Below, one piece after another: positions 42,544-46,547 of a stretch of DNA of 64,000 bases (position 1 is its first letter; each line of letters starts with the position of its first letter). The notes under the pieces were generated by a model. It did no database searches. It was given only the letters and a program-made list of their open reading frames with translations, and was not told the DNA's origin. The stretch is from Hyphomicrobiales bacterium (GTDB lineage: Bacteria > Pseudomonadota > Alphaproteobacteria > Rhizobiales > Rhodobiaceae). The position numbers were made by a program, and so were the translations under genes. The DNA is taken from positions 682,001-746,000 of the forward strand of contig PKTR01000002.1 of the NCBI GenBank assembly GCA_002869065.1, written 5' to 3'.

Positions 42544-44109
42544 TCAGCCAGCGGCGAGATCGCGCGCCTGGGCGCTCCAGTTCTCACGGCCGGCGCGGCC
42601 CTTGAAGCCTAGCTTTTCCTCGATCGGCGCCCAGTCGTCGGCGCTCATTTCAGCCATCCGCGCGAAGCTTGAAATACCGGCCTCGGCGAGTTGGTCGGCG
42701 ATCTTCGGCCCGACGCCCTTGATGCGGGTGAGATCGTCGGCTTTCGCACCCTTGACCGGCTTGGCGGCCGGTTTCGCGGGTTTCGCCGCCTTCTCAACCT
42801 TCGCCGGCGAGGTCATGGCGCCATTGCCATTGACCGGCTTTGCGGCCAGCGGAGCCGGCTTGGTGCCCGACGACGGGCGGTTGTTGTTGTGGGTCAGCAC
42901 GAAATCGGCGATGCGCGGGGCGATCTCGGAGCGGAAGCGCGAGCCGTTGAAAACGCCGTAATGGCCGACACCGGGCTGCACGTAATGGGCGCGCAGGGCA
43001 TCGGGGATGTTCGGGCAGATATGCTGGGCCGCCTCGGTCTGGCCGACGCCGGAGATATCGTCCTTCTCGCCTTCGACGGTGAACAGCGCCACGTTGCGGA
43101 TCTTGGTCGTGTCGACCCGCTCGCCGCGATGCATCATCTCGCCCTTCGGCAGCCAGTGCTCGATGAACACCGTCTCGACGGTCTGCAGATAGAACTCGGC
43201 GGTCAGGTCCATCACGGCAAGATACTCGTCGTAGAACTCGCGGTGCTTCTCGGCGGAGTCGCCGTCACCCTCGATGAGGTGATTGTAGAATTCGTGGTGG
43301 GCGTTCATGTGGCGGTCGAGGTTCATGCCCATGAAGCCGGAGAGCTGCAGGAAGCCCGGATAGACGTCGCGCCAGAAGCCCGGATGCGGGAACGGCACCT
43401 TCATGATGACGTTGCGGCGGAACCAGTCCATGCCCTTTGCCTGGGCGAGATCGTTGACCGCCGTCGGGCTGACGCGGGTGTCGATCGGACCGCCCATCAG
43501 CGTCATCGAATGGGGCACATACGGGTCGCCGGCAGCTTCCATCACCGCCATCGCGGCCAGCACCGGCACCGAGGGCTGACAGACGGCAAGCACATGCACG
43601 TCGCCCTTCATCAGGTGCATCATCGAAACGATGTAGTCGACATAATCGTCGAGATCGAAGCCACCGTCGGTCATCGGCACCATGCGCGCGTCGACCCAGT
43701 CGGTGATGTAGACATCGTGATCGGGCAACAGCGCCTCGACCGTGCCACGCAGCAGCGTCGCGTAGTGACCCGACATCGGCGCGACGACGAGGATGCTCGG
43801 CTGCGGCTTGGGCTGGCTGACCATGCGCTCGAAATGCACCATCCGGCAGAACGGGCGTTCCCAAACGACCTGCTCGCGCACCGGAACCCGAACGCCGTTG
43901 ACCACCGTCTCGTTGAGCCCGAATTCCGGCTTGCCGTAGCGCCGCGTGGTGCGTTCGAACACCTCGCAGGCGGCCGCCATGCTGCGACCGAACGGCGTGT
44001 TGGAGACCGGATTGAACGGGTTCTTGAAGTAGAGCTTGGTCACGTCGGCGGCGGCCCGCATCGGCGCCAGCACAGCGTGGTTGATCTCGTAGAGGTGATA
44101 ATACGGCAC
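42544..44109 (-). CDS. phaZ: Intracellular polyhydroxyalkanoate depolymerase with C-terminal HhH domain
   Basis: A 521-residue protein. Residues 1 to about 410 match PHB depolymerases of the PhaZa type, with the nucleophile Cys in LAVCQPSVP and the His in GVGHYGVFNGSRF. It degrades stored polyhydroxybutyrate. An Ala/Lys/Pro-rich linker (about residues 420-460) leads to a 60-residue C-terminal domain. That domain has LTRIKGVGPKIADQLAEAG, a helix-hairpin-helix of the type appended to varied bacterial proteins. Normal family length is 400-430, so this is an extended form. I prefer the GTG start at 44109 (VPYYHLYEINH) because it matches the family N-terminus and follows GAGGG; ATGs at 44166 and 44181 are alternatives. 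Confidence 0.9.
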   Translation of the reverse strand: MPYYHLYEINHAVLAPMRAAADVTKLYFKNPFNPVSNTPFGRSMAAACEVFERTTRRYGKPEFGLNETVVNGVRVPVREQVVWERPFCRMVHFERMVSQPKPQPSILVVAPMSGHYATLLRGTVEALLPDHDVYITDWVDARMVPMTDGGFDLDDYVDYIVSMMHLMKGDVHVLAVCQPSVPVLAAMAVMEAAGDPYVPHSMTLMGGPIDTRVSPTAVNDLAQAKGMDWFRRNVIMKVPFPHPGFWRDVYPGFLQLSGFMGMNLDRHMNAHHEFYNHLIEGDGDSAEKHREFYDEYLAVMDLTAEFYLQTVETVFIEHWLPKGEMMHRGERVDTTKIRNVALFTVEGEKDDISGVGQTEAAQHICPNIPDALRAHYVQPGVGHYGVFNGSRFRSEIAPRIADFVLTHNNNRPSSGTKPAPLAAKPVNGNGAMTSPAKVEKAAKPAKPAAKPVKGAKADDLTRIKGVGPKIADQLAEAGISSFARMAEMSADDWAPIEEKLGFKGRAGRENWSAQARDLAAG

Positions 44110-44173: not shown

Positions 44174-44191
44174 TGCAACACGTTTGTTGCA
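44174..44191. promoter_or_regulatory. TGC-rich palindrome upstream of phaZ
   Basis: TGCAACA (44174-44180) and TGTTGCA (44185-44191) are perfect inverted arms around CGTT, 65 bases before the phaZ start. Sites of the PHB regulator PhaR are TGC/GCA-rich, so this is a candidate. It could equally serve the divergent actS gene. Confidence 0.35.
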
Positions 44192-44409
44192 CGATAGTCT
44201 CGAAAGGGCGAGCCGGCAACATAAACGGAGGTTTAACCCGGGTTTTCCCGCCGGTTTGGGCAAATGGCGGGGCAAGAGGCCGTCCGCCGGCCAACCTGAC
44301 GCGGTGCGACTTGTGTTCGGCTTTTGCGTCAAAACCGATATAACGGCGACAGAAGCGAAGGGCCGTGCCGGTTCGGCGCGCCCCATCCGGCAGGCGGATA
44401 GCGAAAAGA

Positions 44410-45744
44410 ATGAGCCTACTTCTCGATCCTCACGACCATACATCCCGCCTGCAGGTCAGGCTCGACACGCTGGTGCGGCTGCGCTGGCTGGCCGTGGTCG
44501 GTCAGGCGGCCGCCGTCCTGATTGTCGCGCAGGGGCTGCAATTCCCGCTGCCAACGCTGTGGTGTTTCGGGCTGATCGCGCTGTCGGTCTGGCTCAACCT
44601 GTTCCTGAAGATCCGCTATCCGTCGAGCCTGAGGCTCACCGAGGGCTGGACCTCGGCACTGCTCGCCTACGACATCGCCCAGCTCGGCGGCCTTTTGTTC
44701 CTGACCGGCGGTCTGACCAACCCGTTCGCGCTGTTGCTGATCGCGCCGGTCACGGTTTCTGCGGCCGCGCTGCCGCCGCGCAGCACGGTGTTTCTCGCGG
44801 TCCTGTCGTTCATCACGATCTGCCTGCTCGCCTTCTTCCATTTTCCGCTGCCGTGGCCAGAGGGCATTCCGTTCGAGTTCCCCCGCCTGCTGATCGTCGG
44901 CAACTGGCTGGCGCTGGCGCTCGGCTTCGCCTTCACCGCGATCTACACCTTCCGCATCGCCGACGAAGGCCGGCAGCTCGCCGAAGCGCTGGCGGCGACC
45001 GAACTGGTACTCGAACGCGAACAGCACCTTTCGGCGCTGGACGGTCTGGCGGCAGCAACCGCGCACGAGCTCGGCACCCCGCTCGCGACCATCGTGTTGA
45101 CAGCAAAGGAAGTACGGCGGGAACTGCCCGACGATCACGAACTGGCCGAGGACATCGCCCTGATCGCCTCGCAGGCAAGCCGCTGCCGGGAAATCCTGTC
45201 GCGGCTGTCGTCGCTGTCGGCGGATCCGAGCGACCACATCGGCCGCATGCCGCTGTCGCAACTGCTTGAGGAAGTGGTTGCCCCGCACCGCGATTTCGAC
45301 ACCGAGATCACGATCGAAATCGTCGACGAAGAGGGCGCGGAGCCCATCGGGCAGCGCAATCCGGGCATTCTCTACGGCCTCGGCAATATCGTCGAAAACG
45401 CCGTCGACTTCGCCCGTCGCAAGGTCATGATCAAGGCCTACTGGAACGAGAGCGAGGTGAAGATCTCTGTCAGCGACGACGGGCCAGGCTTTGCGCCGGG
45501 CGTGCTCGACCGGCTCGGCGACCCCTATGTCACCACGCGTTCGCGGCAGAGCGAGGCCGAGCAAAGCACCGGCGGCGGGCTCGGTCTCGGGCTGTTCATC
45601 GCCAAGACCCTGCTCGAGCGATCCGGCGCCCGGGTCACCTGGCGCAACCGACCGGGCCAGCAAACCGGCGCGGTCGCCGAGATTGTCTGGCCCCGGGCCG
45701 CGATGGAGCGCACCAAGACCAGCTGGGACACCCGCACGCGCTAG
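44410..45744 (+). CDS. actS: Redox sensor histidine kinase of the RegB/PrrB/ActS family
   Basis: A 444-residue membrane kinase. Six membrane segments fill residues about 25-180, with the quinone-site motif LTGGLTNPFALLL. The H-box AAATAHELGTPLA has the phospho-acceptor His219. The redox-active Cys of the family is present as Cys259 in ASRCREIL. The N, G1 and G2 boxes follow (GNIVENAVDFA, DDGPGFAP, GGGLGLGLFIA). It senses aerobic/redox state through quinone and Cys and phosphorylates ActR. It is separated by 245 bases from actR and divergent from phaZ. Confidence 0.95.
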   Translation: MSLLLDPHDHTSRLQVRLDTLVRLRWLAVVGQAAAVLIVAQGLQFPLPTLWCFGLIALSVWLNLFLKIRYPSSLRLTEGWTSALLAYDIAQLGGLLFLTGGLTNPFALLLIAPVTVSAAALPPRSTVFLAVLSFITICLLAFFHFPLPWPEGIPFEFPRLLIVGNWLALALGFAFTAIYTFRIADEGRQLAEALAATELVLEREQHLSALDGLAAATAHELGTPLATIVLTAKEVRRELPDDHELAEDIALIASQASRCREILSRLSSLSADPSDHIGRMPLSQLLEEVVAPHRDFDTEITIEIVDEEGAEPIGQRNPGILYGLGNIVENAVDFARRKVMIKAYWNESEVKISVSDDGPGFAPGVLDRLGDPYVTTRSRQSEAEQSTGGGLGLGLFIAKTLLERSGARVTWRNRPGQQTGAVAEIVWPRAAMERTKTSWDTRTR

Positions 45745-45989
45745 GCGAAGGCACCAGAAGACGCCAAAAAAACCTTGCCCGCGCCGGAAACCAAAGGTGC
45801 CGTTGTCTTTCCTTTGGCCGACAAAATGCTTAGAACGGGGCTGAAGCCAAGGTAATTCGCGCTGCCCGAATGGGGCAACGCTTGCTCCGGACTTGCAACT
45901 GAGTATAAGTATAAATTATGCGCATATGCTAAAATAGCGTGACAAGAAACGGAGACCGGTTGGTGGAGGAAGCACGGGAGCGCGGCACC

Positions 45990-46547
45990 ATGAATGACGA
46001 GTCAGAAATGACCGTGGTCGGCGACGACACTTCTTTGCTGATTGTCGACGACGACAAGCCGTTTCTTACCCGAATTGCCCGGGCGATGGAGAAGCGCGGT
46101 TTCGTGACTGCGACGGCGGAATCCGTTCAGGACGCCATCTCTCAGGTCGACGGCAACCCGCCGGCCTATGCGCTGGTGGACATGCGGCTGGGCGACGGCA
46201 ACGGCCTCGATGTGGTCGAGACGCTGCGCAGCAAGCGGCCCGACGCGCGCGTCGTGGTGCTGACCGGTTACGGCAATATCGCGACCGCGGTGACCGCCGT
46301 GAAACTCGGTGCCATCGATTATCTGGCAAAGCCCGCCGATGCCGACGAGGTGTTCGCCGCGCTGACCCGCGACCCCGAGAACAAGGCCCCGCCGCCGGAA
46401 AACCCGATGTCGGCCGACCGCGTTCGCTGGGAACACATCCAGCGGGTCTACGAGCTGTGCGACCGCAACGTCTCGGAAACGGCGCGGCGGCTCAACATGC
46501 ACCGTCGCACCCTGCAGCGCATCCTCGCCAAGCGCGCCCCGCGCTGA
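45990..46547 (+). CDS. actR: Redox response regulator of the RegA/PrrA/ActR family
   Basis: A 185-residue regulator, the standard length. The receiver has the acidic pair VDDDKPF, phospho-acceptor Asp64 in LVDMRLGDGNG, Thr in VVLTGYG and Lys in YLAKPAD. A Pro-rich linker (KAPPPENP) leads to the Fis-type helix-turn-helix CDRNVSETARRLNMHRRTLQRIL, which is nearly invariant in this family. It controls redox-dependent genes such as those for CO2 and N2 fixation, respiration or denitrification. The start at 45990 is preferred over the GTG at 45939. The gap before it has an AT-rich stretch at 45900-45935 that may be its promoter. Confidence 0.95.
   Translation: MNDESEMTVVGDDTSLLIVDDDKPFLTRIARAMEKRGFVTATAESVQDAISQVDGNPPAYALVDMRLGDGNGLDVVETLRSKRPDARVVVLTGYGNIATAVTAVKLGAIDYLAKPADADEVFAALTRDPENKAPPPENPMSADRVRWEHIQRVYELCDRNVSETARRLNMHRRTLQRILAKRAPR

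Follow-up and report, generated by a model that had tools for sequence, protein, structure and literature searches.

The window analyzed here, a stretch of 64,000 nucleotides from a Hyphomicrobiales bacterium (contig PKTR01000002.1, positions 682,001 to 746,000), contains a phaZ gene whose product joins a PHB depolymerase to a C-terminal helix-hairpin-helix (HhH) domain (Table 1). The minus-strand open reading frame of 521 amino acids begins with a GTG codon at 44107-44109 and ends with a stop codon at 42544-42546. The list of open reading frames also offers a longer start, at 44181; the start was set at 44109 because similarity begins there in the relatives that match from residue 1. Adjacent to phaZ and divergent from it, at 44365-46547, lie genes for a membrane histidine kinase (with a PilS-like membrane part, Pfam) and a response regulator, which by reading constitute a RegB/RegA-type redox pair. 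A link to a defense system was considered and rejected, as a PADLOC search returned no match.

Table 1. Coordinates of the tail-bearing phaZ gene and of its parts in the window.
Feature	Coordinates	Strand	Basis
phaZ-HhH gene	42544..44109	minus	GTG start, 521 aa; similarity to relatives begins there
PhaZ catalytic region, residues 4-404	42898..44100	minus	TIGR01849, PF06850, alignment, model
Disordered Ala/Lys/Pro-rich linker, residues about 411-453	42751..42879	minus	low pLDDT, charge
Helix-hairpin-helix tail, residues about 454-521	42547..42750	minus	PF14520 HHH_5; NF045508 PhaH, bL21/NuoE/uS2 models; alignment; models; fold search

The catalytic region scores 645.1 bits on the depolymerase family model TIGR01849, for which the curated cut-off is 300.75, aligns to positions 2-403 of the 406 in that model, and matches PF06850 with 331 bits. 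Residues C177, D350, and H383, which we take to be the catalytic triad by comparison with Cupriavidus necator PhaZa1, are invariant across 45 aligned PhaZ sequences, and the protein is predicted to be a complete and active intracellular PHB depolymerase with its catalytic residues intact. Because the TIGR01849 match covers residues 4-404 of 521, the C-terminal extension amounts to approximately 117 residues. The sequence-only reading had described a PHB depolymerase fused via an Ala/Lys/Pro linker to an HhH domain, an assignment that is borne out at both ends of the protein, and had put the extension at about 100 residues, which is right as to its existence and somewhat short as to its length. 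The 42 residues separating the two aligned domains carry a net charge of +7; PhaZ linkers are mildly basic (median +3 over 50 PhaZ). They are followed by a tail of about 68 residues, comprising the hairpin IKGVGPKIADQL and then a conserved GR..R..W..QA, a motif that is common to the tails in an alignment of 28. The Pfam HHH_5 model (PF14520) scores 27.6 bits on the whole protein and 30.7 bits on the tail piece, against a gathering score of 27. In the AlphaFold2 model of the full-length protein, built on a 45-row alignment (mean pLDDT 88.8), the helices of the enzyme and of the tail are confident; pLDDT falls below 50 over residues 420-453 and returns to block means of 88-97 over residues 461-521. 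When modeled alone, the tail piece has a mean pLDDT of 79.2, floppy start included, and reaches about 90 where it is folded. A chance or wrong-frame origin of the tail was also considered and is ruled out by the in-frame tail on 50 distinct PhaZ and by the high pLDDT.

The distribution of the tail on PhaZ was followed at two depths. Among the best 80 named PhaZ loci of at least 575 obtained from a contig scan, a set biased to close relatives, 25 bear the tail, and these include Rhodobium, Roseibium, Stappia, Pannonibacter, Bauldia, Chthonobacter, Oryzibacter, one Pseudovibrio, and one Cohaesibacter. The other 55 loci, among them Bradyrhizobium, Xanthobacter, Chelatococcus, Alsobacter, and a second Pseudovibrio and Cohaesibacter, encode the same enzyme family (TIGR01849; 62-72% identical in the best segment) but end a median of 22 residues past the catalytic region, without an HhH. 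In the second sample, each of the 52 families present in a draw of 297 genomes was represented by a single genome. PhaZ exceeded the cut-off in 42 of these families, and comparison by eye of the coordinates of the PhaZ and tail matches placed the tail in frame on PhaZ in 12 of them and on none of the PhaZ of the remaining 30. Outside the order, PhaZ occurs in 60 genomes of the class (E up to 1e-60); a tail-profile search of 50 of these genomes found no tail on PhaZ, and eight of the 50 have the tail on some protein (E up to 1e-10). The tail is frequent on PhaZ of the order and is not peculiar to the genome of the window. The sequence-only reading had named a frequent and known accessory of PhaZ in this order as an outcome that would count against it; frequent it is, whereas no published description of it on PhaZ was found in a search of open-licence papers. 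The window PhaZ tail (42547-42762) is 51-53% identical to those of Rhodobium orientis and its apparent twin G002, whereas the catalytic regions of the window PhaZ and of the congener G001 share 78% identity; thus, the tail seems to change faster than the enzyme.

An unrooted tree of 106 PhaZ catalytic regions, 50 of them with the tail, contains a branch with a support of 97 that gathers 49 of the 50 tail-bearing rows on one side, together with nine tail-less rows. The tail label changes seven times on this tree, and at least five of the changes are forced by well-supported branches. The tree suits a history in which the tail was gained early, was lost repeatedly, and was acquired again once or twice. 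In Cohaesibacter, the tail of one PhaZ (L069:5462-5677) groups with the tails of membrane proteins and NuoE in a weakly resolved tree and is perhaps a separate fusion; another Cohaesibacter PhaZ (L087) has no tail. Donor relations among tails are in general weak, because the tree of tails was built on few columns and shows few starred branches (10 of 239). The patchy spread, the number of label changes, the families whose PhaZ does without the tail, and the possible separate fusion in Cohaesibacter would all agree with the notion that the tail is a passenger, gained by fusion as a spacer or an aid to solubility that is readily copied, and has no specific job on PhaZ. Against this notion stands the long retention of the tail across families, in which the W of the motif is kept in 56 of 56 PhaZ tails and each R of GR..R in 54 of 56, and we consider a mere passenger improbable.

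PhaZ is not the only host of the tail. In the genome of the window, a profile search shows that the tail also caps bL21, uS2, NuoE, and one membrane protein with a single helix, recognized by eye (L002, L003, L004, and L005). The membrane protein has a long Ala/Lys/Glu segment, and it shares with NuoE an extra C-terminal KRV..GDVP extension. The tail is present somewhere in 51 of the 52 genomes that represent the families (25/25 and 25/26, plus the genome of the window). A census of places over 40 bits, from which the PhaZ of G009 and G016 were left out, comprised 178 distinct carriers with scores of at least 40 bits, which cluster as NuoE (31), bL21 (31, with one further fragment among the singletons), uS2 (31), bL19 (14), PhaZ (10), RND pumps (3), ABC ATPases (3), one related pair, and 53 singletons; the clusters were named from Pfam scans of single members and otherwise by reading. 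Many of the singletons listed, again by reading, combine an N-terminal membrane helix with one to four tails. Large transport proteins (L239, of the AcrB family by Pfam, and L237 and L245, which fall in the same cluster) carry an HhH tail, or two of them, close to the C-terminus, and a PAS-GGDEF-EAL protein (L289:311-4906; Pfam) from another family of the order has four copies. The same tail family is found in protein-O of the Dinoroseobacter RC-LH1 complex, of which chain 8yy9_O scores 93.8 bits on the tail profile. The available part of the paper on that complex already notes a C-terminus shared by protein-O, NuoE, and others, calls its function obscure, and leaves the tail part of protein-O untraced in the RC-LH1 map (PMC12079452); the hosts in question are membrane or respiratory proteins, unlike PhaZ. 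No papers on tail extensions of bL21 or NuoE were found in the open-licence literature with the required terms.

The closest precedent on a storage granule is PhaH of Caulobacter crescentus (NF045508), a granule-associated phasin with a C-terminal HhH of the same family. The accessible text of a 2025 review describes the N-terminal part of Caulobacter PhaH as binding the granule and its HhH as binding DNA non-specifically; granules are disorganized without PhaH, and the HhH is needed for granule order (PMC13052382; primary paper Salinas 2023). When the 91-residue C-terminal piece of the window protein was compared with NCBIfam, PhaH gave the best score (73.7 bits) and bL21 the next (72.7 bits), residues 9-90 of the piece aligning to positions 152-233 of the 234-position PhaH model; with the whole protein, bL21 was ahead (70.8 versus 69.2 bits). 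The PhaH scores of 69.2-71.8 bits stand against a cut-off of 250, and the C-terminal part alone aligns, which is not the match of a full PhaH-type phasin: PhaH is a phasin, whereas in the protein studied here the granule-facing part would be the depolymerase itself. A special kinship of the PhaZ tail with PhaH beyond that of other hosts was looked for and not found; the PhaH model gives higher scores on the bL21 (77.7 bits) and uS2 (76.5 bits) tails of the same genome than on the PhaZ tail (71.8 bits). By sequence, the PhaZ tail resembles the tails of bL21 and PhaH to about the same degree.

A search of 53 genomes of the order gave no full PhaH over the cut-off, and a search of 240 genomes drawn from the class, at E up to 1e-45, gave none either; among 14 control genomes, Caulobacter vibrioides gave the only match. 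The genome of the window encodes three phasins over the Phasin_2 cut-off, all without the tail, and no clear phasin was recognized among the other listed tail carriers of at least 40 bits read in the 12 genomes with a PhaZ tail. Where PhaH is missing, PhaZ may thus be the tail-bearing protein of the granule. One phasin of the genome of the window (L131:1306-1839, Phasin_2), which adjoins a second (L130), has an Ala/Lys/Pro-rich N-terminal stretch that, from its composition, might bind DNA. Two other proteins, PhaM of Cupriavidus necator and PhaF of Pseudomonas putida, link PHB granules to the nucleoid by C-terminal DNA binding and, in the sections of the review at hand, do so via a histone-like domain and not an HhH (PMC13052382). 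In the window protein, unlike PhaM and PhaF, the basic Ala/Lys/Pro stretch is a linker ahead of a folded domain, and the Pfam listing at E up to 1, with 13 matches, includes no phasin or PhaF family.

The fold of the tail leaves room for more than one kind of partner. The nearest folds to the tail model were the N-terminal domains of RadA (Z 8.9), a Pol theta helicase domain (Z 8.5), and NusA AR2 (Z 8.2) in a VIA comparison that covered chains ranked by Foldseek (19 to 35% identity among the matches), although such Z values for helical domains may mean just a common arrangement; the best Foldseek E value was 0.029. These neighbors mix DNA-processing and protein-binding contexts. NusA AR2, an HhH solved together with SuhB (6ib8), is also among the nearest to the tail by sequence in a search of the PDB (23.8 bits). 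Together with the diversity of hosts (NuoE, bL21, uS2, bL19, membrane proteins, RND pumps, ABC ATPases) and the near-neutral or acidic charge of the tails, this resemblance is what a general alphaproteobacterial protein-docking domain would lead one to expect, in which the tail binds a shared partner or itself and recruits PhaZ there, not to DNA. To our knowledge, no protein partner of the tail is known. In G046, a genome of about 30 contigs with a completeness rating of 100%, a search at E up to 0.001 found no copy besides the PhaZ tail, and G036 and G051 each have a single copy, on uS2; therefore, pairing between different tail-bearing proteins is not essential. This, and the DNA binding reported for the PhaH HhH in the part of the review cited above (PMC13052382), count against docking, and we regard it as rather unlikely, while taking it seriously.

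Charge and the hairpin residue bear on binding to nucleic acids. The tail has a net charge of about 0 in the window protein and a median of -1 over 50 PhaZ, so that a generally basic tail, which was looked for in both, was not found, and charge therefore gives no support to DNA binding by the PhaZ tail. DNA-binding HhH motifs often have Lys or Arg after G-x-G-P. Of 56 PhaZ tails, 52 have one of these two residues there, as do both of two unassigned phasin-like tails; the position is basic in 25/32 NuoE, 20/76 other tails, 1/32 bL21, 1/31 uS2, and 0/14 bL19, in rows that are related to each other and thus do not provide independent counts. Since it is frequent in NuoE and is Lys in two of four bL21 tails outside the order, the hairpin Lys follows lineage as well as host. 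The PhaZ of G046 (L185), the sole tail carrier of that genome, has Ser at this position, which counts against a simple reading of the hairpin Lys. The ribosomal hosts invite a different proposal, in which the tail binds RNA or ribosomes, its main function being the one marked by the ribosomal copies, and brings PhaZ and complex I close to translation. Indeed, 76 of the 178 census carriers cluster as bL21, uS2, or bL19, and archaeal eL32 and uS13 have related HhH domains, which match the tail profile weakly in the PDB. The basic hairpin residue of PhaZ tails is, however, mostly absent from the ribosomal tails of the order, the PhaH precedent concerns DNA, and a ribosome structure with the tail is absent among the 29 PDB matches to the tail profile. 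We therefore hold this proposal to be improbable.

The reading that we prefer, at a probability of roughly 0.45, is that the tail serves as a tether to the nucleoid. The enzyme domain of PhaZ would sit on the granule surface, and the tail, on its flexible basic linker, would bind nucleic acid, chiefly chromosomal DNA, with no sequence preference, thereby keeping PhaZ and its granule beside the nucleoid. The sequence-only reading had proposed that the fusion ties storage granules to the nucleoid, and the idea has since gained a homologous precedent, because the HhH of PhaH, which is of the same family, is reported to bind DNA (available part of PMC13052382); it has lost ground to the finding that the tail is equally bL21-like, is present on ribosomal and respiratory proteins, and is uncharged on balance. 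In favor of the tether are the homology to the PhaH tail, the fold neighbors, the basic hairpin residue, and the old retention on PhaZ. In addition, PhaZ could fill the place of PhaH, which was not found in full in the 53 genomes of the order, and the lone PhaZ tail of G046 can do without a second tail-bearing protein as a partner. Against it are the near-neutral charge, unlike that of strongly basic DNA binders; the fact that the tail seems no closer to PhaH than to bL21; its presence on proteins of the ribosome, of complex I, and of the membrane, for which a nucleoid tether is not obvious; the 30 of 42 families that manage without a tail on PhaZ; and the occurrence of the hairpin Lys in NuoE and some bL21, with Ser in the PhaZ of G046.

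An HhH tail on a PHA enzyme is already in print: the accessible portion of a paper on Haloferax mediterranei describes an HhH extension of the PHA synthase PhaC, the function of which was unknown to its authors, who likened it to PhaH (PMC12028471). That PhaC and the PhaZ described here are both PHA enzymes in which a disordered extension at the C-terminus leads to a final HhH; however, the former is an archaeal synthase and the latter a depolymerase, and the two are likened by description, not by sequence. What is new is that a tail of the PhaH type sits on a depolymerase and not on a phasin. Furthermore, a domain whose function is called obscure in the available text on protein-O (PMC12079452) occurs in 51 of 52 sampled families, and any explanation must cover all of its hosts. 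It is tempting to speculate, as a long shot, that throughout the order the tail lends its hosts, namely ribosomal proteins, complex I, membrane anchors, and in some families the PHB depolymerase, an affinity for nucleic acid or the nucleoid; it would thereby gather storage mobilization, respiration, and translation round the nucleoid, PhaZ itself being the granule tether. If the tail on PhaZ does bind DNA, degrading the granule and holding it in place would fall to the same enzyme, and the position and the mobilization of the store would be coupled in one protein.
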